NCBI GenBank assembly: GCA_017163975.1 | Contig: JAFFSR010000396.1 | Location: 62,001 to 126,000, forward strand | DNA length: 64,000 bases | Direction of reading: 5' to 3' | Origin: Anastatus disparis | Lineage: Eukaryota > Arthropoda > Insecta > Hymenoptera > Eupelmidae | In this document: in pieces, positions 8,470-62,803 of the stretch | Position numbering within the stretch: position 1 is the stretch's first letter | How the letters are laid out: the number at the start of each line of letters is the position of its first letter | Notes under the pieces: generated by a model | Told to the model about the DNA's origin: nothing | Database searches by the model: none | Seen by the model: the letters and a program-made list of their open reading frames with translations, nothing else | Position numbers and translations under genes: made by a program

Positions 8470-9178
8470 TGATGTTTGATAAAAAAAGGTTAAAATTATT
8501 CACTAATTAAGATAGTAATATGCTTTCTCGAAGTTAAATTTCGCTGACATTATTTGAACGAAAAATTCATTAATTAGTAGGGATACTACTGCAAATTTAT
8601 ATGCGACATGATTTGTATGAATGATCTTTATGTATGGGTATCGACTACGAGTAAATCAACATATTTCATGGAAGTTGCATGAATCTTAAACAATTGTTCT
8701 TTTGAAATCTTTTAATTTCCGAGTATTCTTCGACCTAATTGAACAACCTTAGAATCTAAATGTAAAAGAATTTCCAAGTTCCAATTGACGTAGTCCCTGC
8801 CAATGCCTGTAAACTTCATAACCGGTATGAAAAGTTTCAAAATTCATTCATATAGACGACTTCCGGGTAGCCAGGATCACCTGGATATTGTGAGATGTCA
8901 TCTCGGGAAACGTACATGTTATTAATAAATAATGGCTAAATTTCAAAAGATCTTCTTGTAGACAATGTTTATCTTACTCGGAACATCCATGTTTGGCTAG
9001 ATAACATTTGCAACAACTTCAAAGTGGTTATTAAACTATAAGTAGAATTTCAAAAGTTTTTGCTGTAGATGATGTTAAGGTTGTCATTAACACCTAGGTA
9101 TCCAAAGACGGCGATCGTGGGTACCACAGCATAGTAAATAACTATTTTTTAACAAGTGTCTACATCGAAAAGGTAAAG

Positions 9179-9210
<32 letters not shown>

Positions 9211-9396
9211 GATACATACTTTACCTTTTCGATGTAAACACTTGTTAAAAAATAGTTATTTACTATGCTGTGGTACCCATGATCGCCGTCTTTGGATACC
9301 TAGGTGTTAATGACAACTTAAACATCATCTACAGCAAAAACTTTTAAAATTCTACTTATAGTTTAATAACTACTTTGAAGTTGTTGCAAATGTTAT
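8470..9396. mobile_element. Foldback repeat unit with (TA)n at the hairpin tip
   Basis: The arm at about 8999-9183 is repeated inverted at 9208-9396 (key words CGAAAAGGTAAAGTATGT and CACAGCATAGTAAATAACTA), separated only by (TA)n at 9184-9207. The outer part, 8470-8998, occurs once here. The same 8470-9183 sequence recurs inverted at 57756-58483, which shows it is a mobile or duplicated unit. No protein is encoded. Confidence 0.7.
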
Positions 9397-9497
9397 ACAC
9401 GCACGCACATGCTCACACGTACAAACACATATTTGATTTTATATATATATATAAAATATGTATATATGTATGTGCGCACACATACAAACACATATTC

Positions 9498-9534
<37 letters not shown>

Positions 9535-9664
9535 AATATAAAATTAAATATGTGTTTGTATGTGTGAGCATGTGCGTGCGCGTATGAGTTGAAATTAAAT
9601 GTTCCATATAAACTTGAATGAACCTGTGTGTGTGTGTACGTGTGATTCTTCGTGAAATGTCCCT

Positions 9665-9701
<37 letters not shown>

Positions 9702-10164
9702 AAAAATATATATAATGGTTACGAAATTACACTAGCGACCCTCCAGTTCTTTTTTTACTTGTGGACCCTATTTTTCTGAGTGAGACGAATTCTACACGCG
9801 CCCAATTTCGCCCACGTTTTAAAAATTCGATTTAACATATCGTAAGTAACAAAGGAAGGATACTAGAGACTGCCACACCCCGCGACGTGCAGGACACAAA
9901 CAAAGGCTGTACTGTATGAGTCAGCATAATGCCGCGTACATACGTTTATATATGTACATATATATGTTTATATTATGCTTACGAGTTGACGTGAAAAGTC
10001 CCATGTACATGAACGCGTGTAAACATGCATGTCAATTGACATGGAACGTCTCACATATATAGACCTAAAAGTACTTAGATAGGTGTGTACGAGTTGTCAT
10101 GAAACGTCTTATATATATAGAAAAACCTGTGCTTGCGAGTACGTGCGAGTTGACATAAAATGTC

Positions 10165-22825: not shown

Positions 22826-23552
22826 TGGCTGTATTCACAGTAGCATGGAAGTTCGGCAATTCAAAATTCCACCTGTGATAAATTAATAACGGTAAAATTT
22901 GCTCCAGTATGCTGAATCGTGGTTCATGATTATTCTTGTATCAACCATACGATACAAAATAACAATTTGATATTTTTTTATTTGTCAAGTATTTTATATA
23001 CAATAGGAATAAAAACGTATAACAAGCCATACAGAGTAAACAGTTCATTATTACACAGTAGCTTTTTTTGTGACTGTTTCATTAATTATGAAAATACTTA
23101 ATATCAACCAAAGATCGTTCTAGCAAATGTAGCATGCGAAAAGAGCTTGCATAAATTATTTACACTCGTGAAAAATCCCGTGGTTTTAAATCTGATTGCT
23201 ACAACTAAACGTTCAAAAGATGTATCCTCGATATACTTATATTTTATACAAGCTCTCAGAAATAGCCCTAGCGTCAATCGCATTAGACGTGCATGTATGA
23301 TACGATATAACCTATCTATTTACACGTGTCTTCTTGACTCGATGTAATATTATATACATAGTATGATACGACATAACCAAGCTATTTACACGTGCATTCA
23401 TAATTCGGTATACGATCGTATATAACCTTGTATACGCGTATCAATAGCTAGGTATAAGGTTACAGTAGTATCCTCGGTATGCATATACGTATAAATAACC
23501 AAGCTATTAACGCGAGTGCGCACACACCTCGGCATAGTAATCTCAGTACGCA
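22826..23552. repeat. Outer left arm of the 5.6-kb inverted duplication
   Basis: This 727-bp segment is repeated inverted at 27676-28398 with high identity, including GGCTGTATTCACAGTAGCAT at the outer edge and CTCAGTACGC at the inner edge. Its open frames have mirror copies in the other arm but no recognisable domains. Confidence 0.9.
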
Positions 23553-24176
23553 AGAAATTAATTCAGATTCTGAAGAAGATAAAAATTTTAAAGTTCTAAC
23601 TATAGATAATCTGAATGAATCAATAACAAAAATTCCATCTCCAGATTCAACGACTTTAAATGATGTAACACTCGATGATATAGATCCCGATGAAGAATTT
23701 GATATTGTCAATATAAATTATTCGCAACCATATCAGCATCTTCTAAATAGTCTTAAAAGTGTTCAAAAAGCAATTGCTTCAGTTAATGGAGAACGTTCAC
23801 AAGCTATTTAAGATATTAAAGTAAATAATAATTAAAATGTCAAAAATAAGTGTTCAGGTAATCTTGGATCATCTGAAAGTAGTATTGAAACTTCTGATTG
23901 TATCTATTCCAGCATAAATGCTAGTGTATTGTCTAATCTAGAAACAGATAATGATACATTAAATATTTTAAGCTGATAAAATTCATCACCAAATATAAGA
24001 AGTGATCTTTTTCAAAACTTAGAAATTAATCCTAGCCAGTTGAATCATCTTGAATATTGTGATAATGTGCTGAAACTTGATAACGTGCTAAACACTGCGG
24101 ATAAGCAAACAGTGTCTAAAAGAAAAATAAATGATGAATGCACTTAATAAGTACCAGAAAAATCATAAGTTAGCGG
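23553..24176 (+). pseudogene. Inverted partial copy of the unknown pseudogene
   Basis: An inverted near-identical copy of 24549-25165. The plus frame from about 23553 reads an acidic Glu/Asp/Ser-rich protein (EINSDSEEDKNFKVLTIDN, then Asp-Asp-Ile-Asp-Pro-Asp-Glu-Glu-Phe) for about 85 codons to a TAA. The frame then continues through further stops with NLGSSESSIETSD and INPSQLNHLEYCD. The N-terminal part present in the other copy is absent, so it cannot be functional. Confidence 0.75.
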
Positions 24177-24245
24177 ATACAAGAGATAAATGTAAGGAAG
24201 ATCAGCAACGGATACAAGAGATAAATGTAAGGAAGATCAACAACT
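24174..24245. repeat. 32-bp direct duplication near the palindrome centre
   Basis: GGATACAAGAGATAAATGTA followed by AGGAAGATCA occurs twice in a row next to the centre of the inverted repeat (around 24360). It is absent from the other arm. Confidence 0.7.
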
Positions 24246-24384
24246 CGATTCAACAAAAAATGATAGCCTGAGAACTGCTGAATACCTCAATATTTTGTGT
24301 TTAACTATAACTACAGAGCCTTCAGAGGTTTTCATCTAAACTTGGTAGTCTTCGAGTAAGTTCAAAGAGAATATTCCTTAGTTT

Positions 24385-25999
24385 TTAAACAATGCGACTA
24401 TCTTGCATTTGGTTTCCAATATACAACAGAATATTAGCAGCAATTTCCACATACAAGGAATTCATTTTATCTAAATCTCCTTTAGGTGTTGGTTGAAATT
24501 TTGGCAGTAAAGCCAAGATGACCTTTTGTGGATTACACACCGCTATCCTATGATTTTTCTGATACTTATTAAGTGCATTCATCATTTATTTTTCTTTTAG
24601 ACACTGTTTGCTTATCCGCAGTGTTTAGCACGTTATCAAGTTTCAGCACATTATCACAATATTCAAGATGATTCAACTGGCTAGGATTAATTTCTAAGTT
24701 TTGAAAAAGATCACTTCTTATATTTGGTGATGAATTTGATTAGCTTGAAATATTTAATGTATCATTATCTGTTTCTAGATTAGACAATACACTAGCATTT
24801 ATGCTGGAATAGATACTATCAGAAGTTTCAATACTACTTTCAGATGATCCAAGATTACCTGAACACTTATTTTTGACATTTTAATTATTATTTACTTTAA
24901 TATCTTCAATAGCTTGTAAACGTTCTCCATTAACTGAAGCAATTGCTTTTTGAACACTTTTAAGACTATTTAGAAGATGCTGATATGGTTGCGAATAATT
25001 TATATTGACAATATCAAATTCTTCATCGGGATCTATATCATCGAGTGTTACATCATTTAAAGTCGTTGAATCTGGAGATGGAATTTTTGTTATTGATTCA
25101 TTCAGATTATCTATAGTTAGAATTTTAAAATTTTTATCTTCTTCAGAATCTGAATTAATTTCTTGGATGGTAACAGTAGATTGTGGAGCATTGTCATACT
25201 CATAAAAAGTAATGTATTCTGTATGACCTTTATCATTTAAATTATGCTCTTTACTATAAGAAACTATTTTTTTGTACAATTTAATCATTTTCACTATTTG
25301 AAAGAGGTTTGCTTTTAGCAAATCACTGTCTGAACTTGAAACATGTGTTTTTTTTTCAGGTATAAAATTTACTATTTCTTCTTTGTTTAAATTTACTATT
25401 TCATTATCTGAAAGATTCTTCTTTTTATCTAGTTGTCGAATGGTTTTATCATTACTTTTTTTCTGAAGGATACTCTTTACATCTGACCAATCGATATGCT
25501 CCATTCTACCTCGACTTTGATAGTCGAATATTGAAGTATTAACTTAGATTCATTTTGTGGGTTAATGATTTGTGGTTCTTTGATATGAAGTGCACCTCCT
25601 CTTAGTTCAGGATCAGTGTCAACTTTATTATCATCTAAACTTAATAAAGGCTTGTTAAATCTTTTATTACCTTGGCGATATTTTTTATAATTATCTTCTT
25701 TTATTTTTTGACATCTTTAAAAAAACATTTTCTTCTGCATTAAAGAATTTCTCAATAGCATTTTTTTAGCTTCAAATGAACTATTACTTTTCGTGCTGAT
25801 AGATTCACTATAATTTGACACTCTCATTGCAGTATTTGAGGTGGTTGGTATTTTTTCCTGATCTTTATTGGGCTTGGATTTACTTTGTGTGGTAGCATTT
25901 TTTAGCCTTTGCGGAATCAAAAATCAAGATGATGGAGATGGCACGCTAGTATTGGAACTGTTTACAGTATCAGTAGTATCATCTAATATCACCATTTTG
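24385..25999 (-). pseudogene. Unknown acidic Ser-rich protein gene, decayed by stops and frameshifts
   Basis: Read right to left, a frame opens with an ATG at 25999 (Met-Val-Ile-Leu-Asp-Asp). It meets a TGA after 23 codons, continues as a Lys/Ser/Asn-rich stretch (25920-25717) and meets a TAA. It then runs on as Lys-rich sequence with GGALHIKEPQIINPQNE before a frameshift into 25504-24881 (207 codons: EHIDWSDVKSILQKK, a Lys/Ser-rich middle, then an acidic region). A TAA and a second frameshift lead to a final segment ending with GDLDKMNSLYVEIAANILLY at 24385. I do not recognise the family. Consistent coding character across the breaks argues for a former single gene of about 500 codons. Confidence 0.6.
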
Positions 26000-26359
26000 T
26001 CAATTATTTGAAAAAAAAATCAAAAATATAATGCTTTGTACAGTATATATACAAAATAATTTCAATATGTGTATATCAATATCATAACCTCTAAGAAACA
26101 AATGAAAACTCATCAATTTCTTACCATAAACTATCACAGAGGAGCTAAGTAAATTATCACAGAGGAAAAAAAGAAATAAAAAGTTTCTTAACTCATTTTC
26201 TTAATTTAAATAAATAGAGTTTAATTGCACGCATTCATATGAGAACATACATGATGCATTTTAGGAACACATGCAGACGAACTTTGAGACGAGTATAAAA
26301 TTATCAACGTGATACGCGTAATATATGTGCGTTCATAGGTGTTAACCTAGGTGTATATA
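26000..26359. other. Spacer between pseudogene and minisatellite
   Basis: AT-rich with no gene seen. CG-containing words typical of the following minisatellite (TACACGTATA, TGCGTTC) begin near 26320. Confidence 0.4.
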
Positions 26360-27675
26360 CGTGTATACTGAGCTATTTTTATACACGTATACCTCGTTGT
26401 CTATGCTCGTATAGCGAGGCATGTAAACGCGGCTAAATAGCGCGGCATACTATTGTACCGAGCTGTTTTTATACACGTATACCCCGTTGTCTATGCGCGT
26501 ATAGCAAGGCATGTATACGCGGGTAAATAGCGCGGCATACTATTGTACCGAGCTATATTTATACACGTATGCCTCGTTGTCTATGCTCGTACAGTGCCGC
26601 ATACTATTGTACCGAGCGGTTTATACCGTGGTGTATATTTAGCGCGGTTAATATGCTAGTATACCGAGCTATTTTTATACACGTATGCTCGTATGGCGAG
26701 GCATGTATACGCGGGTAAGTAGCGCGGCATACTATTGTACCGAGCTGTTTATATCGTGGTGTATATTTAGCGCGGTTAATATGCTAGTACACCGATCTAT
26801 TTCTATACACGTATGCTCGTATAGCGAGGCATGTATACGCGGGTAAGTAGCGCGGCCTACTGTTGTACCGAGCTGTTTATACCGTAGTGTATATTTAGCA
26901 CGGTTAATATGCTAGTATATCGAGCTGTTTATAACGCGGTGTATATTCAGCGCGGTTAATATACTAGTATACCGCGCTGTTTATATCGTGGTGTATATTT
27001 AGCGCGATTAATATGCTAGTATACCGAGCTATTTCTATACACGTATGCTCGTATAGCGAGGCATGTATACGCGGGTAAGTAGCGCGGCCTACTGTTGTAC
27101 CGAGCTGTTTATACCGTGGTGTATATTTAGCACGGTTAATATGCTAGTATACCGAGCTATTTTTATACACGTATGCTCGTATAGCGAAGCATGTATACGA
27201 GGGTAAATAGCGCGGCCTACTATTATACCGAGCTGTTTATACCGTGGTGTATATTTAGCGCGGTTAATATGCTAGAGTACAGAGCTATTATTATACACGT
27301 ATGCTCGTATAGCGAGGCATGTATACGCGGGTAAATAGCGCGGCATACTAGTGCACCGAGCTGTTTCTACCGTGGTGTAGATTTAGCGTGGTTAATAAGC
27401 TAGTATACCGAGCTATTTATACCGTGGTCTATTTTAGCATGGTTAATATGCTAGTATATCGAGCTGTTTATAACGCGGTGTATATTCAGCGCGATCAATA
27501 TACTAGTATACCGCGCTGTTTATACCGCGGTGTGTATTTAGTGTGGTTGATATGGTAGTATACCAAGCTGTTTATACCGCGGTGTATATTTAGCGTGGTT
27601 AATATCCTAGTATACCGAGCTGTTTATACCGCGGTGAGTATGCGCATGTAAATAGCTTGGTTATTTGCGCGTGTA
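26360..27675. repeat. 1.3-kb complex minisatellite (ACCGAGCTATTTTTATACAC family)
   Basis: Two subunits alternate. One is ACCGAGCTGTTTATACCGTG GTGTATATTTAGCGCGGTTA ATATGCTAGTAT. The other is ACCGAGCTATTTTTATACAC GTATGCTCGTATAGCGAGGC ATGTATACGCGGGTAA GTAGCGCGGCATACTATTGT. The left third repeats every 88-90 bp, and the middle shows a higher-order period of about 133 bp. It is rich in CG dinucleotides compared with the surroundings and absent from the left arm of the inverted duplication. Confidence 0.88.
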
Positions 27676-28398
27676 TGCGTACTGAGATTGCTATGTGGAG
27701 GTGTGTGCGCGTGTTAATAGCTTGGTTATTTATATGTATTTGCATACTGAGGATACTACTGTAAGCTTATACCTAGTTATTGATACGCGTATACAAGGTT
27801 ATATATGATCGTATACCGAAATATGAATACACGTGTAAATAGCTTGGTTATGTCGTATCATACTATGTATATAATATTACATCGAGTCAAGAAGACACGT
27901 GTAAATAAATAGGTTATATCGTATCATACATGCACGTCTAATGCGATTGACGCTAGGGCTATTTCTGAGATTTTGTATAAAATATAAGTATATCGAGAAT
28001 ACATCTTTGAAACGTTTAGTTGTAGCAATCGTATTTAAAACCACGGGATTTTTCACGAGTGTAAATAATTTATGCAAGCTCTTTTCGCATGCTACATTTG
28101 CTAGAACGATCTTTGGTTGATATTAAGTATTTTCATAATTAATGAAACGGTCACAAAAAAAGCTACGGTGTAATAATGAACTGTTTACTCTGTATGGCTT
28201 GTTATACGTATTTATTCCTATTGTATATAAAATACTTGACAAATAAAAAAATATCAAATTGTTATTTTGTATCGTATGGTTGATACAAGAATAATCATGA
28301 ACCACGATTCAGCATACTGGAGCAAATTTTACCGTTATTAATTTATCACAGGTGGAATTTTGAATTGTCGAACTTCCATGCTACTGTGAATACAGCCA
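27676..28398. repeat. Outer right arm of the inverted duplication
   Basis: A 723-bp inverted copy of 22826-23552, with small substitutions and indels. Confidence 0.9.
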
Positions 28399-43151: not shown

Positions 43152-44516
43152 GGGACGTTTCAGGTCAACTCACCGAACAAAAAAATAAAATTCGTTGTAA
43201 ATCTGTGAAAATGTTCCATTTCATACCCAAAATATACAAAAAAATTTTCAGAGGTATAGATCCAATGGATTAAGAGTAATGAGTAATGAAATATTGTGAT
43301 TTTTCAAAATTTTTGGTGAATTCATCAAATTAATAATTTTTTTACTCAAAAACTAAGGGTCCTAGAGATGTACTTATGAAGACATTTCTTGTTGCAAATT
43401 AAGCGTAGAATCAGCACAAATTTTTTTAAATCTCAAGATTGCTATCTTCTGATTGGTCCACTTTGTTATTTCATATAATTTGCAATTACTTGAGTTCGAA
43501 CAGGTTGATTTCACTCCTGTTGGAGTATGTTATGTCTTCTGATAACATATTGAAGTAAGCTTTTGCTCCACTTGGCTCGAGCCCTAGGAGAGGAGCTATA
43601 GAACTTTGAATATTGAAAAATTTTTAATTTTGAATTTAACACATACATCAACATTTTCTTCTTCGATGTTCATAGATAATACAATATACGAATGCATGAT
43701 TGTCTAAATATTTTAACATTTATCTATTTCTTTATGATGCAAGTGTTTTATTTTCCAGATATATAGTATTAATTTTAATTCCTAAATATGTATATTTAAA
43801 TAATTTTTTAATACGTATGCAAAATAGTTATAATGACAAATTAGTTAAACGAATAAAATTTTCTTGTTTATGAGTGTATCTTGATGATGTGTACGTAATG
43901 CATAATTAATATTTTAATAAAACACTTGCATCATAAAGAAATAGATAAATGTTAAAATATTTAGACAATCATGCATTCGTATATTGTATTATCTATGAAC
44001 ATCGAAGAAGAAAATGTTGATGTATGTGTTAAATTCAAAATTAAAAATTTTTTAATATTCAAAGTTCTATAGCTCCTCTCCTAGGGCTCGAGCCAAGTGG
44101 AGCAAAAGCTTACTTCAATATGTTATCAGAAGACATAACATACTCCAACAGGAGTGAAATCAACCTGTTCGAACTCAAGTAATTGCAAATTATATGAAAT
44201 AACAAAGTGGACCAATCAGAAGATAGCAATCTTGAGATTTAAAAAAATTTGTGCTGATTCTACGCTTAATTTGCAACAAGAAATGTCTTCATAAGTACAT
44301 CTCTAGGACCCTTAGTTTTTGAGTAAAAAAATTATTAATTTGATGAATTCACCAAAAATTTTGAAAAATCACAATATTTCATTACTCATTACTCTTAATC
44401 CATTGGATCTATACCTCTGAAAATTTTTTTGTATATTTTGGGTATGAAATGGAACATTTTCACAGATTTACAACGAATTTTATTTTTTTGTTCGGTGAGT
44501 TGACCTGACACGTCCC
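43152..44516. mobile_element. Foldback element with GGGACGTTTCAGGTCAACTC ends
   Basis: Near-perfect inverted arms of about 600 bp (43152-43752 and 43917-44516) surround a loop of about 165 bp. The ends begin GGGACG(T/G)TTCAGGTCAACTC ACC and sit directly against TA-rich DNA. Internal words such as TGGCTATCTTCTGATTGG-like segments are shared, diverged, with 51720-53872. It has no ORF of note, so it is a non-autonomous member of that family. Confidence 0.85.
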
Positions 44517-47855: not shown

Positions 47856-47997
47856 AGAAAGGACATTTCATGAAGAATTGCACGTACACACAAAGGCTTA
47901 TTCAAGTTTATATGGAACATTTAATTTCAACTAATACGCGCACGCACACGCTCTCACATACAAGCAAATATTTAACTTTATATATATATATATATAT
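47806..47997. repeat. Minisatellite block 8, left flank of the long-TIR element
   Basis: (TA)n, GGACATTTCATGAAGAATTG, TTATATGGAACATTTAATTT and CA-rich words, then (TA)n to 47997. It is the inverse of 9540-9670, so the two loci share ancestry. Confidence 0.8.
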
Positions 47998-49075
47998 GGG
48001 TCAAAATAACATCTTTTTATAAAAGTGTGCGCATGTGGATCACCGATTTTGCTGATTTTGAGATATGTTTTAGTATTATTAAAGTTAGGAATCTGTGCAA
48101 AATTTCAGCTCTCTAAGTGCAAAACTCGCCGAAATATGGCCTTTCAAAGGTCAAAAACTCCGCTTTTTTCGGCTGTTTTTCACTCTTTTTCAAAATTCTG
48201 CCAAGACTCGAGTTTTTAACATATTTTAATTCGGCAGGCGGAAATTTCTTCGTTTTTATGTTAATTTTAAATTTTCGTAATTATATTTTTAAAAAATTCT
48301 AATCAGGCTTCTGAAAACTCTTAGAATAAAATACTGATTTTTGACATTTTTGACAATTTTTAAACAGCTGTAACTCATTTGAATTTTGATATTTTTAAAT
48401 TATCAAAATTTTGTTTTATTGGTCAAAAAGAAAGCTTTAATTTGCATTTTTAAATTTTCAAAAAGGTTTAAAATTGACGGAGATACAAAGGTTTAAAGTT
48501 TGCAAAATTTCTAAAATATACGTTTTTTACAAAATTTAGATCATTGTAACTCTGGCCGGACAACTTCAAATTCACTAAATCTTACAAGAAAACTTTCTAT
48601 AAGTCACGTAAAATGAGGCCAAATAGGCCTGGTCAATGGTATCCTACGATTTTACTATTATTTGAACCTCTCATAATTCAGTATTTTGCTTCACAAGTAA
48701 ATCAATACACCCAGCTGTTGCGTCTTCTACTCATAAATGCGAAAACCTTAAAAGATTCAACAGGCTATAAATTATGAAATGAGCGATAAAAAACTTGATT
48801 TTATGCTTGAGTATAGGTCTCTAGGTCGTTTAGAATAAAAGTTATAACAGTTTGAGAATTTTTTATTTCTCAAGGTATCAAATCCGTGAACGCTTACTCT
48901 AGCCGATTTTTAGATTGGTCTTAAATTTCCTATAACTTAATTTCTATGATACTTCAGGACTCTTATTGAAGCTCTAATTAAAAATTATTGCTTGTAATTT
49001 CAATATCTTTGATGAAGTATAAATGTAAGTCTGCTAACATCTAAAATAAACAACTTTATTTTTTTCTTATAACAT
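47998..49075 (+). repeat. Left terminal inverted repeat of the 9.75-kb element
   Basis: It starts GGGTCAAAATAAC. Similarity to the right repeat ends at TTCTTATAACAT, beyond which the two sides diverge. Confidence 0.9.
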
Positions 49076-49083
49076 CGTTAAGT

Positions 49084-49774
49084 CCCTATTGAAAATAATG
49101 ACGTCTTTTAAAGACGTCTTTAGAAGACGTCTTTTAATAACGTCATAAGTCACAAGAGAAAATTCAAAAGTAGTTAAACTACAGGATAATAATTATTTTT
49201 TTATTTTTCATTAAAACCTACAAAAATACCTCTATTCATTAGTTGAAATAGAGTGTGAGAAAACTATCATTATTTTAGATCAAACGAAACTGTCAGTTTA
49301 TATGCTCTGAACGGTCTTATTCTTTTCGTGCACATTCGCTTACCATAAAGAAATCAATCGCTAAAAAGCGCGGTAGCCCTCTAACGAGCAATCATCAGTA
49401 CTATTATACAAATTGATATGAATCTAATAATAGTACTAATGATTGCTCGTTAGAGGGCTACCGCGTTTTTTAGCGATTGATTTCTTTATGGTAAGCAAAT
49501 GCGCACGAAAAGAATAAGACAGTTCAGAGCATATAAACTGACAGTTTCGTTTGATCTAAAATAATGATAGTTTTCTCACACTCTATTTCAACTAATGAAT
49601 AGAGGTATTTTTGTAGGTTTTAATGAAAAATAAAAAAATAATTATTATCCTGTAGTTTAACTACTTTTGAATTTTCTCTTGTGACTTATGACGTTATTAA
49701 AAGACGTCTTTCAAAGACGTCTTTTTTTGTTCCAAATCCAGACACGTCCAAAGACGTCATTATTTTCAATAGGG
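49084..49774. mobile_element. Foldback MITE with CCCTATTGAAAATAATGACG ends and GACGTC repeats
   Basis: Arms of about 345 bp are inverted around 49430. The ends are CCCTATTGAAAATAATGACG. Clustered AAGACGTCTT palindromes sit just inside both ends (three on the left, two on the right plus variants). No ORF. Confidence 0.8.
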
Positions 49775-50106
49775 GTATCAGCTATTACTTTAATTGAGTG
49801 TGACATCTTTACCGACGACTATCATATCTGTGTGATTTAATATTTCATATAAAAAAATTGAAGTAACAGCTGATACTCAAGTAATGATACTTAAGTTCCA
49901 AGTGATACTCAATACTCAAGTCATGACTATAAATCCGAGCCCTACCCTCACCTTGTGAATTTTCATACCTGTTTATACGATCGTGTACTAAATAAAACTA
50001 GAATGAACGTCTATGTTACTTTCGATTGTTGTTTTTTTTAAATAGCAATTATTACTTTTACTCATAGTAAATAAATGAGAAAAAATAAACAAGAAGTTTT
50101 TTAAAT
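49775..50106. other. Region upstream of the transposase-like gene
   Basis: AT-rich with TGATACT(C/T)AAGT repeats near 49870-49925. It probably contains the promoter, but no clear core element is assigned. Confidence 0.35.
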
Positions 50107-53100
50107 ATGGCTTTAAATTGCTATATTGCAAAACTATTAGTACATGAAACTGAAAAATGTATCAGTGATTCTTATACACAAAATAATACTTTAAAAAATA
50201 TAGATTCTTTTAGCAAAGATGACTTAAAATATTTGAGTTACCGTGTTCCTGGTTTTAAAATTGATTGCAATGATGTAATTTGCACTCACCATGCTGATAA
50301 ATATTTAAGACATTATTCAATGAAACAAAAAAAATGTTGCGACCCATTCAACAAACATGCAGTGAATGTGAAAATTCATTTGAATGTATTAAGTCTTCAG
50401 GATTGTGAAAGTTTTGAAAAAATTCTAAACATTAGATTAATCCCAGGGCAAAAAATATGTCGTAATTGTTATAGAAAAATAAAGACTGCAATATTAAACT
50501 ATGGTAATCAAAATAACTATTGCCGTGATCCCTTTAAAAGACACAGAAATCCAGTGAATAATTTTCTGAAAATAGTAGATGAAAATATATCTGTAAAATT
50601 TGCAGTAGCCTGCAGCGATATTGAATTGTTATCAGGTGTCACAGTATGTTCCTCTTGTTATAACAGAATCCAGTCAATAGTATCAGAGTTCGAAACACAA
50701 CAAAATATAAAATCTGATGTGAAAGCTACTGCGACTCAAAGCAGCGAAAGTAATAGTGAATCATTAGCAAGTTTACAAAACTCTGAGAACTTCATATCTA
50801 CAAGTCAAAATGCAAAAAATTTAGATTCACTTTATGCAATGTTTAATATTTCACCTATAGATAAAAATAAATTAACGCTTGATAGATTGAAAAATAAAGC
50901 ATTAGATGCATTACAATGTATTGTTGGCGAAATTACCACTACAATGTGTAAAGTATATGATATTGAATTACCAAATTTTTCAAATTTAAATGAAATTCAT
51001 CAGGATTCAGTAGCGTTTAAAGCATTTATCAAGAACTCAGTGAATTATTATAATTTAGCATCTAATACTAATGAAAAAATAAAAATTTTAAGCTTGATGC
51101 CATATGATTGGAATTATAAAATGGTTAATCAATATTTTGACTGTTCTCGTTATTTTTATAATGAAGTAGTGAAACTACGAGAAAATGAAGGTAAATATTT
51201 GAATATCACATTGATAATAATATAATAATCACTATAATAATATTATAACAGTAATAATAATAATCACATTATTAATGTTAAATAGATTCAGAATTCATAA
51301 CAAAAATAATAATTGTAAAATTAAATTTTAATTAATAAATGCAATAATTAAAATATATTTTATCTAGTTCTGTTTCCTTAAAAAAATACAAAAAATGACT
51401 AGTTTATAGTTATCACAGGAAAGTGTTAGTAATCAATGATTGTGATATACTCATAAATAAAAATAAATTATAAATTTAATACTAAAATAATTAATGAATT
51501 TTTTCGTTCAAATTTATCTGGAGAATTTTTTATTACAAAAACTTTTTATTAAAACCAATGATCAAATATTGCAGTATAATACACAATATTTCATTTCTAC
51601 TATTATAAAAAAAATTTAATGAACTAATCATAGTAATTAAAATCCATACAATGTTTAAAATGCACATTAGAAGCATTATTTAATCATAATTTTTTAGAAA
51701 TTGAAAATTTTGTATCTGTGGCATTTCATGTCAACTCACCTGGTCAAAGAATAAAAATCGCTAAAAATCTGAAAATATTTTCTATTTGATACCCAAAATA
51801 TACAAAAAAAATTTTTAGAGGCTTAGGTCCAAGAGGTCAAGGTCATGAAATTTTGGGATTTTTTGAATTTTTTTGTTAAATTATCATCTTTGATATTTTT
51901 TTATTCAAAAACTAACGATCTTAGAAAAAAATGTATAAACAAATTTTTTGTTGGAAATTATGTGTAGAAACTGTACAAATTTTTCCCAATTCCAGAGTGG
52001 CTATCTTCTGATTGGTCCATTATATATTTGCATATAATTTTAAATTACTCGAGTTCGCCCAGATTCATTTTATTCATTTAGCATTAAAAAGTTGCATTAT
52101 ATATTGACCTTTGACTGAAATTTTTCCTCATGTGCGAAAAGTTCTCTGTAAGCAGCTATGGAACTTTCAATTTTTCCAAAAATAATGTTTTCAGTGATAT
52201 TGAAAATTTTTATTTGAAATTTGCTCTCAACACTCTTGATAATTCTTAATTATTAATATGATAATTATTTTGATATTGTTATTATATTTTAAAATTTTAT
52301 TATATTTTAACAATTTGAATCTTATTCAATGCAGAATTAAGCTAAATTAATAACTGTACATTCACATAATAAAAATCTACTTATAAGTTTAAAGTCAAAG
52401 TACACTGAACAAAGAATTATTAAATTATTTCACAGTTGCATTCCACATTGCTATTTAATTAATATTAAATAGAAAAATTGTGAACTCACAATACACTAAA
52501 CAATCAAGTTTAAAATACACAACAGAAATCTATAGAAAGAAAGCGAACAAGCTATTCAGCTTGATAACTTTTAAGTTATAAATAAAAATTAATTTTTCTG
52601 TTTAAATAAGCTAAGGTTGAAGTGATAATCCCAAAAATATCAGCAGAACCTACTGATTTATCTTACAGATTTATTGATACTGTTCACTGTTGAGTGTGAG
52701 GCAGCATCTATAATTGTATACTTAATAAATAGCTGTAAAAGTTATTGATTTTTTTAATTCTCTTGGTGTATTTAGTACAATGTTTGTAAATATGCAGACA
52801 AGAGCAAGGTCCTTTGTCTTGTTCAATTTCAGAATAAATTCCAAATTGGTGTGATAAAACTTTATGAAAGACATAGTCTAAGTATCACATACAAGTAGCT
52901 TTTTAATGGCAAAATTAAGAATTTATATAATATAATTATAAAATCATTGCATTGTTTGAAATTTTTAATTTAATCAATATTTCTATTTTTATTCTTTGAA
53001 ATGCTTTATGATATAAATTTAAATTATAAATACGGTTGAAGTTATCAATTTTAAATTCACAAATATATTTATGAAAATATAATTTTATTATGAAAGCAGA

Positions 53101-55563
53101 AGATTCCAGTCAAATTGAGTCGCAAACAATAATTTTTAATAAAATCTTTCGAATTTGTATTGTGTACTTGAAATAAAAATAAAAAATATGAGATTATATA
53201 ATGATATAAATAAAATTTATTTACCATAAATTTAATATTAATTCAATAGCAGTTTGGAATGCAACTGTAAAATAATGAAATAATTTTTTGTTCAGTGTGC
53301 TTTGACTTTCAACTAAGTGGCCTTTAATCTAATTGAGTGGATTTTGATTATGCGGTTGTGCAGTTATTGATTTAGCTTAATTCTGCACGAATCGAGATTA
53401 AAATTGTTAAAATATAATAACATTTCAAAATATAATAATAATATTAAAATAATTATCATATTAATAATTAAGAATTATCAAGAGTGTCGAGGGAAAATTT
53501 CCAATAAAAATTTTCAATAACACTGAAAACATTATTTTGGAAAAATTAAAAGTTTGATAGCTGCTTACAGAGACATTTTCCACATGGGGAAAATTTCAGT
53601 TAAAAGTCTATATATAATGCAACTTTTTAATGCCAAATGAGTAAAATGAACCTGGACGAACTCGAGTAACTTAAAATTATATGCAATTATATAACGGATC
53701 AATCAGAAGATAGCAACTCTGGAATTGGGAAAAATTTCATGATCTCTTGCTCTTGACCTCTTTGACCTAGACCTCTTAAAATTGTTTTGTATACTTTGAG
53801 TATCAAATATAACATATTTCCAGATTTTCAGCGATTTTTATTTTTTGACCAGGTGAATTGACATGAAATGCCCCATCTATATAAAATGATGTATATAATA
53901 AAATTCTATTTTATCATAGGGCCAATGTCACGTTCCAGAAAGTTATACACTCGCGTTCCTGATGAAGTAAAAAAGGAAATCATTGAATACTATAAAAATG
54001 ATTGCAATAGTCGTCCATGCAGTGGGATGAAGGAATGTGTTATGCAAAAAGTTCCTAATGCTAAATCGATTCCAGTACCAAAGAGACTTTTGATGTATAA
54101 TACTAGAGATCTATACAATAATTGGTTACAGGAGAAAACGTGTGAAGAGAAACCATGTTTTTCGTTCTTTGCATCTTTGCGCCCTAAAGAAAGTGTATCA
54201 GCTGGAAGCCCTGGAACGCACACAGTTTGTGTATGCGAGTTACATCAAAATGTTAAATTAAGATTATCTGCTTGGAATAGAAAAATAAACTATAGACTGC
54301 TTATAGATGAAGCCGTTTGCTCTATTGATAACAAAAATTGCATGCTGCATCAAACATGTACAATGTGTCCAGGGCGCAATGCAATTTTTCAATACTTATC
54401 CAATGCGCAAGATAATTTGTCAATACTTTCCACTTGCATCTGTTTTAAAAAATGGGAAACTATCAAGACAAGTGCAGGAAAAGAAGGAGCTCAATTTAGT
54501 AAAACAGTTCTCAATGACTTGGAAGAACCTCGTGATGAGTTCTTAAATAAACTTGTAGAGAATATTTATAAATTAATGCCTCACCATTTTGTTAGTGAGA
54601 ATCAAAAAATATTCCTCAAAGCATGCAAATCAAATTTAGACAAAAACACCTGTCTGATCTTAATGGATTTTTCAGAAAATTTTGCTTTTATCTGTCAAGA
54701 TTCGACTCAGGGCTATTATTATAATAATAGTCAAGCCACTGTACACCCTTTTGCTGTATATTACAAGGATGAAGCGTCTGAAGAACTGAAGATTTTAAAT
54801 TTCTGTGTAATATCAGATTGTACAAAACATACAGCGGTTGCAGTTAATATATTTCAAGAAAGAGTTTTAGAAAAACTCAAGGAGCTTCTTCCTTGGATAA
54901 AAAATATTATATATTTCTCAGACGGAGCACCTACCCAGTACAAAAACAAGTAAATATATATTTATTTTCATAATTTTATTTATCAATAAGTAATAGAATT
55001 TTGAAAAAAGTAAAATATTATTTATTTTTCATCCAAGTTCATTAGTTTATAAAAATAAAAAATGTTTTAGGAATCATTTCATCAATTTATGCCATCATGA
55101 AGAAGATTTTAGGTTCAAAGTTATATCTCATAATTTTTCAGCAACAAGTCACGGCAAAAATGTATGTGATGGAATTGGTGCCACTGTTAAGAAATTGACA
55201 AGAAGAGCTTCATTACAAAGACCTATCAATAATCAAATACAAACTGCAAGGCAAATGTTTGATTATTGTCAAGATAATATTTCAGGAATAAGGTAAAAAA
55301 ATTACTAATTCTGTTACTAACAATTTATAATTGTTTTGATATTTATTCTTGTTATAGTAATAAATAATTTATTTGATAGATTTCTTTATGTTAATCAACA
55401 AGATGTTGAAGCAAGGGATCGAAAACTTCATTCTCGCTTACAGGCAGCTCGAAGAATTAGTGACACTAGAATTCATCACTATTTTGAGCCAATCGGCCAA
55501 TCTCGTATGAAAATTAAAATTTTCTCTGCTGATGATGAATTTGCATTAGTTAATATTGCATAA
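50107..55563 (+). CDS. Four-exon gene: ARL14EP-like Cys modules fused to a transposase-like domain, 839 aa
   Basis: Exons 50107-51190, 53920-54949, 55071-55292 and 55380-55563 join in frame with GT-AG introns of 2729, 121 and 87 bp and no internal stop. Residues 54-126 and 139-190 are two copies of a Cys module (CCDPFNKH...CRNCYRKI; YCRDPFKRH...CSSCYNRI) that resemble the ARL14 effector protein C-terminal domain. Residues 362-839 form a conserved, uncharacterised animal domain with CVCELHQNVKL (465-475), a Cys/His cluster near 502-514, LILMDFSENFAF (Asp611), IIYFSDGAPTQYKN (Asp696), NLCHHEEDF and TSHGKNVCDGIG (Asp738). I infer an RNase H-like transposase; the third acidic residue is uncertain. 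It is probably the mobility gene of the enclosing element. Confidence 0.8.
51720..53872. mobile_element. Foldback element inside intron 1, ends GGCATTTCATGTCAACTCAC
   Basis: Left GGCATTTCATGTCAACTCAC CTGGTCAAA is mirrored at 53840-53872. Inverted similarity is visible at 51720-52480 against 53200-53872 and includes the TGGCTATCTTCTGATTGGTC segment. A nested TIR pair, CACTGAACAAA (52404 and 53285), marks a further insertion in the middle. It belongs to the family of 43152-44516. The intron acceptor lies 47 bp outside it, so splicing is likely preserved. Confidence 0.8.
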
Positions 55564-56668
55564 AGTAAATAGTAATTCCAAAAAATATTTTCCAAAATTC
55601 AAAATATAGTTTATTAAAATAGTAGGATAAACTATATTTTTAATTCAGCATAAGCTTTCGTTTTATTCTTTATTCACTTGATTTTTTATCATTTTTAGAT
55701 AACTATTTATAAGGCTAGCCAACTTTAAGTGTGTTACTATGCTTCATTTGATTATTTAGAAATTTAAATGATTTCCCAATCCAGTGTGAAAATTTTGAAA
55801 GTACTAATATCTATTAAAAGTTATGAAAAGATATTAGAGAATATCAGTGTGCATCAAAGAAAGTGGTTTTGAGTGGGGGTTTGCACATTTAAATATACAT
55901 CAATACCTTCTAATCCTCTTTTAAAATTTGGTATCAAATAAAATATTTATATTTTTATAACGGACATATTTTAATATATTTTGATACCTTTATACCTACA
56001 TCGATGTCATTTTATGAATTTAAAAAAACTGCTTTACAAAATATTTCTAAAAAGAAAATCCGAAATTATGTAGTGCATTATGTTATATTTTAATACCTTT
56101 TAAAACTTTTTATACTTGTTACATCTTTTGATTATTCTTATGAGATAAATTTAGTCATGGATCTAATCAAAAACATTGCGGAGTGTAAAATAATTTAGTA
56201 AAAAAACTATTTGAATTATTTTAAAATAAGACTAGAAAGAATTCGTCAACCGACTCCTCAGTCTTTTTATAATATAAACCTTTCAAAATTCAGAATATTG
56301 CTTCTCAAGTAAGCCAACACTTTCACCTTTTGTGGCGTTTTTTAAAAATTTGAGAGCCCTAGGAGATTCTACACGTCATAAATTATTAAAGTAGATAGCA
56401 AAAGCTATTATTCAAGCTTTGATGAAAGTCTCTAGGTGGTTTAGAACGAAAGTTAAAACAGTTAACGATTTTTATAAACTGAAGGTAATAAATCCGTGAA
56501 CGTTCATTTTATCCGACTTTGAAATTGGTCTCAACTTATTTATAACTCCGGCTTTGTATCAGCTAGTAATTCACCAAAAATCAAATTGAACGTCTTCTCT
56601 TACAGTTTTATCATCTTGGATAAAACTTTTTTTAGTCAAGTTTAATGTGCCAACAGCATCGCGAAATA
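55564..56668. other. 3' flank of the gene with a diverged extra copy of TIR sequence
   Basis: AT-rich. The part at about 56280-56570 is a diverged direct copy of 48660-48960 (shared words AATCCGTGAACG, TAGGT(C/G)GTTTAGAA). With the intact right TIR it forms an internal hairpin. Confidence 0.65.
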
Positions 56669-57747
56669 ATGTTATAAGAAAAAAAGAAAGTTGTTTATTT
56701 TAGATGTTAGCAGACTTACATTTATACTTCATCAAAGATATCGAAATTACAAGCAATAATTTTTAATTAGAGCTTCAATAAGAGTCTTGAAGTATCATAG
56801 AAATTAAGTTATAGGAAAGTTAAGACCAATCTAAAAATCGGCTAGAGTAAGCGTTCACGGATTTGATACCTTGAGAAATAAAAAATTCTCAAACTGTTAT
56901 AACTTTTATTCTAAATTACCTAGAGACCTATACTCAAGCATAAAATCAAGTTTTTTATCGCTCATTTCATAATTTATAGCCTGTTGAATCTTTTAAGGTT
57001 TTCGCATTTATGAGTAGAAGACGCAACAGCTGGGTGTATTGATTTACTTGTGAAGCAAAATACTGAATTATGAGAGGTTCAAATAATAGTAAAATCGTAG
57101 GATACCATTGACCAGGCCTATTTGGCCTCATTTTACGTGACTTATAGAAAGTTTTCTTGTAAGATTTAGTGAATTTGAAGTTGTCCGGCCAGAGTTACAA
57201 TGATCTAAATTTTGTAAAAAAACGTATATTTTAGAAATTTTGCAAACTTTAAACCTTTGTATCTCCGTCAATTTTAAACCTTTTTGAAAATTTAAAAATG
57301 CAAATTAAAGCTTTCTTTTTGACCAATAAAACAAAATTTTGATAATTTAAAAATATCAAAATTCAAATGAGTTACAGCTGTTTAAAAATTGTCAAAAATG
57401 TCAAAAATCAGTATTTTATTCTAAGAGTTTTCAGAAGCCTGATTAGAATTTTTTAAAAATATAATTACGAAAATTTAAAATTAACATAAAAACGAAGAAA
57501 TTGCCGCCTGCCGAATTAAAATATGTTAAAAACTCGAGTCTTGGCAGAATTTTGAAAAAGAGTGAAAAACAGCCGAAAAAAGCGGAGTTTTTGACCTTTG
57601 AAAGGCCACATTTCGGCGAGTTTTGCACTTAGAAAGCTGAAATTTTGCACAGATTCCTAACTTTAATAATACTAAAACATATCTCAAAATCAGCAAAATC
57701 GGTGATCCACATGCGCACACTTTTATAAAAAGATGTTATTTTGACCC
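56669..57747 (-). repeat. Right terminal inverted repeat of the 9.75-kb element
   Basis: The inverse of the left TIR, ending ATGTTATTTTGACCC, followed by (TA)n. Confidence 0.9.
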
Positions 57748-58483
57748 ATATATATATAGATACATACCTTACCTTTTCGATGTAGACACTCGTTAAAAAA
57801 TAGTTATTTACTATGCTGTGGTACCCACGATCGCCGTCTTTGGATACCTAGGTGTTAATGACAACTTAAACATCATCTACAGCAAAAACTTTAGGAATTC
57901 TACTTATAGTTTGATAACTACTTTGAAGATGTTGCAAATGTTATCTAGTTAAACATGGATGATCCGAGTAAGATAAACATTGTCTACAAGAATATCTTTT
58001 GAAAGTTAGCCATTATTTATTAATAACATGAACGTTTATCGAGATGATATCATACAATATCCAGGTGATCCTGGCTACCTGGAAGTCATCTATATATATA
58101 AATTTTGAAATTTTCTATACCGGTTATGAAGTTTACAGGCATTAGCAGGGACTACGTCAAATGAAACTTGAAAATTCTTTTAGATTTAGATTCTGAGGTT
58201 GTTTGATTAGGTCGAAGAATACTCGGAAATCAAAAGAATTTAAAAGAACAATTGTTTAAGATTCATGCAACCTCCATGAAATATGTTGATTGACTCGTAG
58301 TCGATACCCATACATAAAGATCATTTATACAAATCATGTCGCATATAAATTTGCGGTAGTATTCCTACTAATTTATGAATTTTTCGTTCATATAATGTCA
58401 GCGAAATTTAACTTCAAAAAAGCATATTACTATCGTAATAAGTGAATAATTTTAAGCTTTTTTCATCAAACATCATTCATATC
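57748..58483. mobile_element. Second copy of the 8470-9183 foldback unit
   Basis: After a short TA tract, 57768 onward matches the inverse of 9183-8470 over its whole length (TTACCTTTTCGATGTAGACA, AGACGGCGATC inverted, TCGTAGTCGATACCCATACA), ending ATCAAACATCATTC. Only one arm is present here, so the hairpin tip duplication at 9208-9396 is specific to the first copy. Confidence 0.8.
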
Positions 58484-61400
58484 TCCAATTCCGTCCCCCT
58501 GTCTATTTCCATCTGTCTGCATCTCCCCGACTTCGTCGTTTTGACTTCGTCATTCGGCATCCGTCTCTTTTTTTTATTTTTTCACTTCCGTCTCCTTGTT
58601 GTCCGTCTGTTTTCGGCTCTCCATCTCCGTTTCCCATCTATGTCTGTCTGTCTTAGTCTCTCAGTCCCTCCGTCACCGTCTCCCCGTCCCTCCGTTTACG
58701 GCTTACCAACTTCGTCTCCATTTTTTTGTCTCTCTGTCTCTTCGTCTTTCCATCTCTTCCTCTCTCTGTCTCCATCACTCCGTCTTTGTCTCTATATCTG
58801 TCCGTCTCTGTCCCTCTGTCTCTGTTTCTGCATCTTCCGCTATCTGTCTTCGTTTTTCCGTCTACGTTTCTCCGTCTCTATCTGGCCGACAACGTTTCTC
58901 CGTCTCTTCATTTTTCCGTCTCCCTGTCTCTCTGTATCTCTGTCTTTTCGTCTCCGTTTCTGTTGCAGTGTCTCCGTCTCTCAATCTCCATCTTTCTGTC
59001 TTCGTCACTATGTCGCCGTCTCTCTGCCTTTATCTCTCCGCCTCTGGTAAGTTCATGCGTCTCCAGCTATACGTCTCCATCTTTTCGACTCCATCCATCT
59101 ATGTCTGCCTTTTTGTTTCTATTTTTTCGTACTGGTGTTTCCGTCGTACATATGTTTTCAACTCTCCATCTCCGTCCCTTTATCTACGGCGTTCCGCTTT
59201 CGTCTTCGATTCTGCGTCTCCGTCTCTTCGTCTAGGTCTGTCCGCCACCCCTTTTATCTCCGTCCCTCCGTCTACCTGTCTCAGTCTTTCCATTTCAATA
59301 TCACCGTCTGTGTCTCCGTGTCCGGCTTTTCATCTTAATCTCTCCGACTTTGTCTCCATCCCTCTGTCTCCGTCTTCCCGTTTCCGTCTTTTCGTTTTAG
59401 TCTCATCATCTGTGTCACTCCGTTTTTTTAATTTATTATTCCGTCTCCATCTGTCTGTTTTCGACTCTTCGTCTCCGTCTCCGTCTCTCAATCTCCGTTT
59501 ATTCGCCTTCGTCTCTCCAAGTTTGCCTCTCAGTCTATTCATTTCTGTCTTAATGTCTCCGTCCCTGTCTTTCTCTTTCTTCGTTTTCGTCTCTTTGTTC
59601 CCATCTTCCCGAGTCAGCCTTTGCCACTCTTCATCCCTTTGTCTCCGTACCTTCGTCTCCGTCTACCTATCTTCGGCTCTGCGACCCTCCGAATCTATCT
59701 CTTCCTCTCCGTGTCTCCTTCTCTATCTCTCTGTTTCTGTCATTTCGTCTCCGTCTCTCCGTCTCTGTCTCTACGGCTCACCGTCTCCATCTCTCCGTCT
59801 CCGCTTTTCCGTCTTCTTCCCTTCGTCACCGTCTCTTTGTCCCAATCTCTTTGTCTCTGTCTATTCGTCTTTAGCTCTTTGTCTTTTTCTCTCCATCTCT
59901 CCGTCTCTATCTCTCCCTCTCCGTGCCTCCTTCTCTATCTCTTTGTCTCTGTCACTTTGCCTCCGTCTCCGGTTCTTCGTTTCCGTCTCTTCGTTTTCGT
60001 CTCCGACCCTCCGTCTACGTTTAAGTCACTACGTCTTCGTCTCTTTATCTCCAACACGACGCCTCTGTCTGTCCGTTTCCGTACCTCTGACTCCGTTCCC
60101 CCGTCATGGTCCAACTATCTCCGTCTTTCTATCACCGTCTCCTATTCTGCGTCTCGGTCTGACTGTCTTAGTCCCTCCATCCTTTCGTCTCTGTCTCTTC
60201 TCGGCTCCATCTTTTTCTCCGTCTGTTCATCTTTGTCTGTCCGTCACCATCGCACCATCTCCGTCTCTATTTCTCCATCTCCGTCTCTCCGTCTTCGTCT
60301 TTTAGTCTACTTCCCTCTGTCTTTGTCTCCCAGTCCCCGTCTTTCTGTCTTCGTCTCCACATCTCCATCTCTACATCTCCGTCCCTCCGTTTCCGTCTCT
60401 TTGTTTCGTTATCTCCCTCTTCAAATGTTCGTCTTAGTCACTCCTTCACTATCTCTTTATCTCAGTCTCTTTGTCTCTATTTCTCCGTTTTTGTCACTTC
60501 CTCGCCGTCTCTGCATTTTCGTCCCTACATCTTCCCGTCTCCATCTCTCGACTTTCGTCTTTGCGTCTCTATCTCCGTTTCTGCGTCCACGTCTATCTAT
60601 CTCCGTCTCTCCATCTCCAACACTACACCATCGTCTGTCCGTTTCCATATCTCCATTTCCGTCCCCCTGTCTTTCTCCATTTGTCTGCATCTCCCCGTAT
60701 TCGTCGTTTCGACTTTGTTATTCCGCATCTGTCTCTTTTTTTTCACTTCCGTCTTCTCGTTGTCCGTCTGTTTTCGGCTCACCGGCTCTGTCTCCCCGTC
60801 TCCGTTTTCCATCTACGTTTATCTGTCTTAGTCTCTGTCCCTCCGTCACCGTCTCCCCGTCCCTCCGTTCACGGCTCACCGACTTTGTCTCCGTTTCTTT
60901 GTCTCTCTGTCTCTTACTTTCTTTGTCTCCGTTACTCCGTCTTTGTCTCTCCATCTCTCCGTCTCTATCCTTCTGTCTCTGTTTCTGCATCCTCCGCTAT
61001 CTGTCTTGGTTTTTCCGTCAACGTTTCTCCGTCTCTATCTAACCGACGACGTCTCCCTGTCTCTCTGTATCTCTGTCTCTCCGTCTCCGTTTTTGTTGCA
61101 GTGTCTTCATCCCCCAATCTCCATCTCTCCGTCTTCGTCACTGTGTCGCCGTGTCTCTGCCTTTGTCTCTCCGCCTCTGGTAAGTTCATGCGTCTCCAGC
61201 TATACGTCTCCATTTTTCTGTCTCTATGTCTCTGTCTCTCCATCTCCGTCTCTCTGTCTCCATCTATCCGTCCATGTCTCTCCATCTCTTTGATTTTTCG
61301 TTTCCGTCTCCGTCCCTCCATCTGCGGTTTTCCGTCTTCATCTCAGCCCTTCGTTTCCGTTTAATTCACTCCGTCTCCGTCTCCTTATCTCCAACACGAC

Positions 61401-62235
61401 GCCTCCATCTGGCCGTTTCCGTAGCTCCGTCTCCGTCCCGCTGTCATGGTCCAACTGTCTCCGTCTTTCTATCACCGTCTCCTAATTTGCGTCTCGGTCT
61501 GACTGTTTCAGTCCCTCCGTCCTTTCGTCTCTGTCTTTTCTCGGCTCCATCTTTCTCTCCGTCTGTTCATCTTTGTCTGTCCGTCACCATCGCATTATCT
61601 CCGTCGCTATTTCTCCGCCTTCGTCTCCCCGTCTTCGTCTTTTCGTCTCTGTCTTATCATCTCCGTTACTTCGTTTTTATTATAAATTTTTCCGTCTCCA
61701 TCTCTCTGTCTCCGTCTCTCCACCTCCATCTTTCGGTCTTCGCATTTCTGTCTTTTTTTCTATTTTCCTGTCTTCGTCTCGTTGCCGTTAAACTGTTGCT
61801 GACTCTCCGTTTCGTCCCTCTCTCAAGGCTTTACTTCTCTGTCTTCGTCTCTCCATACCTGTCTGTTTGTTTCCGTACCTCCAACACCGTCCCTCCGTTT
61901 ACGCCTTTTCTTCTCCGTCTCTCCGTCTTCGTCTTTTCGTCTTCTTCCCTCTGTCTTAGTCTCCCTGTCTTCGTCTTTCTGTTTTTGTCTCCCCATCTCC
62001 ATCTCTTTATCTCCGTCCTTACGTCTCCGTCTCTTTGCGTCTCTTTTATCTCAGTCTGTCTACTTCCGACTCTCAGTCTGCGTCTCTCCGTCCCCGTCTT
62101 TCCATCTTCGTCTCTCTGTCTCCATCCACCCGACTACGTCTCCGACCCCCCCTTACCGTTTAAGTCACTTCGTCTCCGTCTCTCCGTCTCTGTCTCCTGG
62201 TCTACGTCTCTCCATCTCCGTCACTCCGTCCCTTT
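58484..62235. repeat. 3.75-kb degenerate polypyrimidine satellite, (GTCTCC)n-like
   Basis: Hexamer-based repeat, mostly TCTCCGTCTCTCTGTCTCCG variants with strong strand asymmetry (pyrimidines on plus). Higher-order duplications are visible: about 58485-59080 against 60650-61215, and about 60010-60300 against 61350-61640. Long plus-strand reading frames rich in Leu, Ser, Val, Phe and Arg arise because the hexamers rarely form stops; they are not considered genes. Confidence 0.9.
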
Positions 62236-62803
62236 GTTTCTTTGTTCTCGAGGGGCTATTCAATTGGCGATACATATGTACGTATCGCGCCGTACGTACG
62301 TACGAGCGGACGTAAGTTGGTAGCCCTACAAAGACGAGTTCGCGCGAGCAACGAACAGCTATTCTAACAATCCAAACCTTATGTCTACGTTTTCATGTAA
62401 ATATAAATATGCCCAAATGATTTTTACTGCGCGTAGTATTATTTTAAAGATAGGCATTATTATTATTATCATAATTATTAATAATATTATTATTATCATA
62501 ATAGTTATTAGCAGCTATTAGCATTTATAAAAATTATTAAACTTTTTATACGTATCTAAAATTTTTGTCATAGTAATAATTAATTTAAATAATTGCTTAA
62601 TTATAAATTAATTATTTAAATAAGTTAAGTAATAACTTCTTAAAAAATTTTTAATGTTTCAAAAGTTGACACAACAAATAAGTTAATTTAATTATCTTTA
62701 CAATATTAAATTATTAAATAAAAAGATTAAAATTCATTAACAAAAAAAATTATTGTATAAATAACAATTAAACATTATTTAAAAATTTTTATTTTTTAGA
62801 ATA
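62236..62803. other. AT-rich spacer
   Basis: A CGTACGTACGTACG palindromic patch at about 62290, then AT-rich DNA with (ATT)n words. Nothing coding is supported. Confidence 0.45.

Follow-up and report, generated by a model that had tools for sequence, protein, structure and literature searches.

Our data support a 9.75-kb unit at 47998-57747 of the window (the whole stretch of 64,000 nucleotides of Anastatus disparis DNA that was analyzed) as an element that is mobile and recent and carries its own intact-looking gene from a multicopy family. We hold with high confidence that it is a recently amplified, structurally autonomous cut-and-paste transposon, and that its 839-residue protein would be the transposase, with a putative DDD/RNase H-like core.

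The unit is flanked by long inverted repeats and encloses one four-exon gene. The initial annotation had described near-identical inverted repeats of about 1.08 kb and a gene splicing cleanly into 839 codons, and both descriptions held: the arms measure 1078 and 1079 nt, and the 839 codons plus stop are distributed over four exons separated by three introns, all of them GT..AG. The termini read GGGTCAAAATAACATC...GATGTTATTTTGACCC, the outermost bases being GGG..CCC, with (AT)n directly outside each. The features of the unit, including its target-site duplication (TSD) and terminal inverted repeats (TIRs), are as follows.

47994..47997, no strand: left copy of the TSD, ATAT, within the (AT)n tract
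47998..49075, forward strand: left TIR, 1078 nt, 99.2% identical to the right arm apart from a single indel
49084..49774, no strand: palindrome with 298-nt arms (98%), adjoining the left TIR and recurring in other full-length copies
50107..51190, forward strand: exon 1, encoding one Cys module at residues 77-129, a second at 139-192, and a helix-turn-helix-like stretch
51191..53919, forward strand: intron 1, containing the long inverted repeat 51718-53874
53920..54949, forward strand: exon 2, with the Cys/His cluster C465, C467, H470, C495, C502, C508, C511, and with D611 and D696
55071..55292, forward strand: exon 3, with the motif HGKNVCDGIG including D738
55380..55563, forward strand: exon 4 and stop codon
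56669..57747, reverse strand: right TIR, 1079 nt
57748..57751, no strand: right copy of the TSD, ATAT, its length of 4 taken from 49 paired copies

The palindrome at 49084-49774 and the inverted repeat within intron 1 are additions to what the initial annotation had listed. The latter repeat is older (arms about 86.5% alike, GGGGCATTTCATGTCAA end), is co-carried in other full-length copies, and is 74% related to a separate palindromic element at 43152-44516, which has arms of about 600 nt that are near 100% complementary, a 163-nt spacer, and GGGACG ends inside (AT)n. Elsewhere in the window, a 5.6-kb unit at 22826-28398 has 698-nt inverted ends (96%) beginning TGGCTGTATTCACAG and harbors minisatellites at 26366-27636, and a long TCTCCGTC-type satellite occupies 58500-62300, where the open frames, the longest of 586 codons, are probably spurious. 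The motif GGGACATTTCATGTCAATT occurs 23 times in the window (for example at 2922, 21352 and 45837) with at most three mismatches, against 0.03 expected, often in tandem units of about 50 bp near (TA)n.

A search of the host genome (939-Mb assembly, 399 contigs) for copies sharing the same TIRs, a check named beforehand, revealed 184 sites that match the 44-bp terminus exactly (91 in forward and 93 in reverse orientation), of which the first 100 were listed; the reversed control pattern gave none. Searching with the left TIR listed 46 matches, 40 of them full or near full length at 99-100% identity (40 of 555 candidates scored). Twenty stretches were fetched, together with the ends of further copies, and 49 copies were readable across both ends (excluding, from the pairs among those first 100 sites, the ones spanning 17.4 and 28.6 kb and C14:202520-211832), confirming the boundaries at 47998 and 57747 that had been proposed from the window copy. 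The lengths of these 49 copies fall at 9.75-12.2 kb (23 copies) and 0.43-3.02 kb (23 copies), with three intermediate. The short copies that were read whole (L012, L018, L019, L023, L028 and L070) retain both termini, and most consist of the TIRs and part of the adjoining palindrome; the remaining short copies were characterized from ends and length. One of them, L070 (C74), is a 434-bp miniature derivative with both termini kept, lying in (AT)n. Among 24 sampled TIR arms, a set from which the arms of L003-L009 were excluded as representing the same places as later loci, pairwise identity averages 99.6% with a minimum of 98.8%, the mean pointing to a recent, undated spread. Among the 20 fetched stretches of this family, L025 is alone in having each of the four exons complete and with an open frame; the others have exons that are cut, shifted or missing, the break in L011 being visible in the exon-2 protein matches.

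The (AT)n on both sides of 47998-57747 leaves the TSD length ambiguous from the window copy alone (2 to 10 bp), and the 49 paired copies were therefore compared, with single-ended or altered-end copies (among them L013, L016, L017, L019 and L021) excluded from the count. The flanks match at a length of four in 47 of the 49 pairs and at a length of two in 45, and ATAT is duplicated in 45 copies. Since a match at four is expected anyway in a long AT run, the weight lies on the limiting sites, i.e., C232, L018 and the short runs. In six of the 49 pairs the shorter of the two AT runs at the flanks measures 4; a value of 1-3 never occurs, and four pairs (C232, L018, C10 and C118) have a value of 0. 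C232, with ATTA on both sides, and L018, with TTAT on both sides, match at four (and trivially at one) but not at two, while C10 and C118 (2 of the 49 pairs) have no matching duplication. The target duplication is 4 bp, usually ATAT, and insertion sites lie mostly in (AT)n tracts. The nearest locus resembling an empty site, the reverse complement of 8467-9714, has flanks of 85.6% and 92.6% identity set 324 bp apart and is no clean empty site, as a 197-bp inverted duplication of the right flank lies between the flanks at a TA tract. Taken together, the many copies with the same ends, the 4-bp TSDs and the near-identical arms indicate a recently active DNA transposon.

In the 839-residue protein the motifs MDFSENF, YFSDGAPTQYKN and HGKNVCDGIG occupy residues 610-616, 693-704 and 732-741, respectively. 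A 201-row alignment shows Asp (gaps excluded) at position 611 in 198 of 199 sequences, at 696 in 199 of 199, and at 738 in 201 of 201; in a 121-row alignment D611, D696, H732, K734 and D738 are invariant, and the Cys/His cluster 465-511 and C118/C121 nearly so. Read by eye, the segment 604-750 follows the order strand, strand, strand, helix, strand, helix, strand, helix; strands 1 and 4 each end in one of the acids, and the third lies at the last helix. This is the order of strands and helices in RNase H-like transposases, and a crude propensity profile agrees with the by-eye reading only in part. The helix-turn-helix-like stretch, also located by eye, lies at about residues 320-356; of 60 relatives, three match HTH_23 (best E 4e-5), and the N-terminal part of the IS630/IS481 models gave a weak match in 1 of 8 relatives (E 0.07-0.09).

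A protein search with residues 360-839 returned 587 proteins at E<=0.001, and a search with a Daphnia relative returned 957, with 120 matches listed for each. Named sources among the matches listed include wasps, beetles, water fleas, a spider, a crinoid and a fish, proteins of Phymastichus, Eretmocerus, Diabrotica, Daphnia, Araneus, Antedon and Brienomyrus belonging to the same family as the 839-residue protein; a single match (P0136) is named as from a bacterial metagenome-assembled genome. The closest relatives among the matches listed reach 47% identity over 99% of residues 360-839. The domain had been called widespread in animals and uncharacterized, in agreement with the labels encountered among the matches listed ("uncharacterized", "hypothetical", "Cc8L18.2-like"), none of which names a transposase in the animal relatives. 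Viral and prokaryote contigs yielded 16 pattern matches each, with no family relative confirmed among them.

The element had also been described as of unnamed type. The protein family is unnamed in databases, but the description is doubtful for the type, the traits of which fit published Sola/Sola2. We consider it an evenly balanced proposition that 47998-57747 is a Sola superfamily member (Sola2-like), i.e., a new family of a named kind with a long TIR. As characterized in the accessible text of PMC10741241, Sola elements have a DDD transposase, 4-bp TSDs, TIRs of 11-1124 bp, a range that takes in the 1078/1079 nt observed here, and lengths mostly of 2-9 kb, some exceeding 15 kb. The accessible text of PMC3627910 gives Sola2 AT-rich 4-bp TSDs (AWWT: ATAT, AAAT, ATTT) and one putative transposase of 888 aa. 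Common to these descriptions and the unit are the AT-rich 4-bp TSD including ATAT (a 4-bp duplication was found in 47 of 49 pairs) and a length of several kb; the 1.08-kb TIR also favors the assignment, and the Asp residues conserved at 611, 696 and 738 in aligned relatives would make a candidate DDD catalytic site. However, a 4-bp TSD is common to several superfamilies, the likeness is one of published traits, and the Sola2 elements described have TIRs of just 12-21 bp (PMC3627910, accessible text), the accessible part of their description making no mention of ARL14EP-like Cys modules.

Alternatively, the unit may belong to a separate superfamily unnamed in print, a possibility that we hold tentatively but take seriously. 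No transposase-core Pfam model was found for three window pieces at E<=1, or in 60 relatives (60 of the 120 alignment members) at E<=0.1 among the 25 of 32 families listed, and six motif strings were without match in the literature text, a scope outside which Repbase itself lies. Terminus or TSD is furthermore at odds with the traits, as far as the accessible descriptions give them, of several named superfamilies. IS3EU has TA..TA termini and usually a 6-bp TSD, IS481EU has TNT..AYA termini, and Zisupton has an 8-bp TSD, whereas the termini here are GGG..CCC and the TSD is 4 bp. Tc1/mariner duplicates a 2-bp TA, while two sites here match at four but not at two, and MuDR/Mutator has TSDs of 7-12 bp against the 4 bp found here (PMC10741241, accessible text). 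The superfamilies recognized in Repbase are listed in PMC4455052 and PMC5753468, in the accessible part of each. Against a separate superfamily stands the resemblance of the unit to the published Sola traits. Two further candidates were rejected on their targets.
For piggyBac, in the accessible description, and likewise for Kolobok, the target is TTAA; the 47 matching pairs are ATAT, ATTA or TTAT, never TTAA. Overall, 47998-57747 is a genuine DNA transposon that spread recently, and its apparently intact gene encodes a probable transposase from a protein family that has no name. The anatomy of the element resembles that of Sola, and we infer the fold and activity of the protein.

In the host genome, 119 matches to the exon-2 protein were obtained (118 of 4328 candidates scored), many of them with open frames; about 60 are at least 90% identical, and further groups lie near 60% and at 46-50%. 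A DNA search was run with one relative, L122, which is 60% identical in the amino acids of exon 2 (25 of 1749 candidates scored); the longer pieces recovered mostly show 93-98% identity. Of the 25 scored copies of L122, about 15 stop at one (AT)n tract, beyond which no other scored L122 copy continues except in the tract itself, and the end defined at this tract is 62% identical to the window TIR over 527 bp (E 1e-38, one end). Between the window and L122, exon 2 has a dN of 0.29 and a dS of about 3, the latter near saturation, which we take as purifying selection. Because of these multicopy relatives, the purifying selection and the conserved Asp 611/696/738, the 839-residue protein is most likely the transposase of 47998-57747, as judged from sequence. 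In the mechanism that we propose, its N-terminal Cys modules and helix-turn-helix would bind the transposon ends, the DNA would be cut and joined by a DDD site formed by D611, D696 and D738 on an RNase H-like core, and the short copies could be mobilized in trans.

That the ends are moved by another transposase, with the four-exon gene as a passenger, would fit the many copies that lack the gene or have a broken one. We regard this as very improbable, given that no long sense ORF was found in 47998-57747 besides the four-exon gene, that the copies of the L122 relative show a related terminus where they stop at (AT)n, and that exon 2 is under purifying selection. Another alternative is a host gene enclosed by chance in an inverted segmental duplication, or by an artefact of assembly. 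The repeat nature of the flanks and the inverted paralogue at 8467-9714 might point to it, but it has a negligible probability and is ruled out by the 184 exact termini genome-wide and the 4-bp duplications in 47 of 49 pairs.

The reading of the protein as the transposase of its own unit, proposed from the window alone, is thus upheld as regards the mobile, recent unit with TIRs and the intact gene from a multicopy family, but the RNase H fold was not recovered in PDB or hhalign searches. A PDB sequence search with the single protein gave no matches at E<=10, and the same search with a 120-row profile gave one unrelated match at E 0.72. In hhalign comparisons of the core and helix-turn-helix regions with 29 single bacterial proteins, among them the three DDE transposases InsF, IstA and ISNCY, the DDE transposases did not rank above unrelated proteins (best ten listed per region). 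The profile search for a transposase fold, a check that had been named beforehand, therefore returned no transposase match from the PDB profile or hhalign. Mean-field covariation (199 sequences, effective number 149) was set aside as evidence: some top pairs fit the beta1/beta2 and beta2/beta3 hairpins (sums near 1250 and 1293) and M610-S695; the best parallel ladder scored 2.11 against 2.05 for the largest of 20 column shuffles and pairs residues 647-652 with 679-684, which are not among the expected strand pairs; the best antiparallel ladder (1.76) lies inside the shuffle range; and a register scan over the five expected strands was mixed.

The N-terminal part of the protein had been likened to ARL14EP on account of its two Cys modules, and this likeness was recovered with a provisional human ARL14EP sequence, 260 aa long and without a transposase-like region. 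Of the 201 proteins of the family, 87 match this provisional sequence at E<1e-5, against 0 of 201 shuffled proteins, although the part of it outside the C-terminus was set down with the family sequences already in view; the assignment of ARF7EP_C (PF14949, 1.6e-36) by Pfam vouches for its C-terminus alone. The best family match is 9e-31 over 140 residues and that of the window protein 1.4e-15, with identities of 41% over 140 aa to the family member P0132 and 31% over 118 aa to the window protein. When the two Cys modules of the latter (77-129 and 139-192) are aligned with one another, the score exceeds that of all 2000 shuffles. The resemblance to the 839-residue protein thus concerns the N-terminal ~140 residues of this provisional ARL14EP sequence, with their Cys module, whereas ARF7EP_C was not reported among the matches listed for the three window pieces or the 60 relatives. 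A protein database search with window residues 1-200 gave 28 candidates, none at E<=0.001, and titles and abstract openings among the literature entries listed (Repbase reports lying outside) connected no transposon with ARL14EP or with the motif strings. A bolder interpretation, which we consider unlikely, is that the family constitutes an animal superfamily outside all named ones, with (AT)n targets and a 4-bp TSD, whose N-terminal module was captured in vertebrates as the front half of ARL14EP, making the human gene a domesticated relic.

If the reading of 47998-57747 as an autonomous transposon encoding its own transposase is true, a large set of unnamed animal proteins, represented by the 587 and 957 matches, would become probable transposases. 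The family is young, and its exact ends, target rule and short derivatives are directly testable, while the likeness to ARL14EP raises a concrete question about the origin of that gene. Lastly, if Sola transposases prove homologous to the 839-residue protein, 47998-57747 would be a well-documented member of the Sola superfamily.
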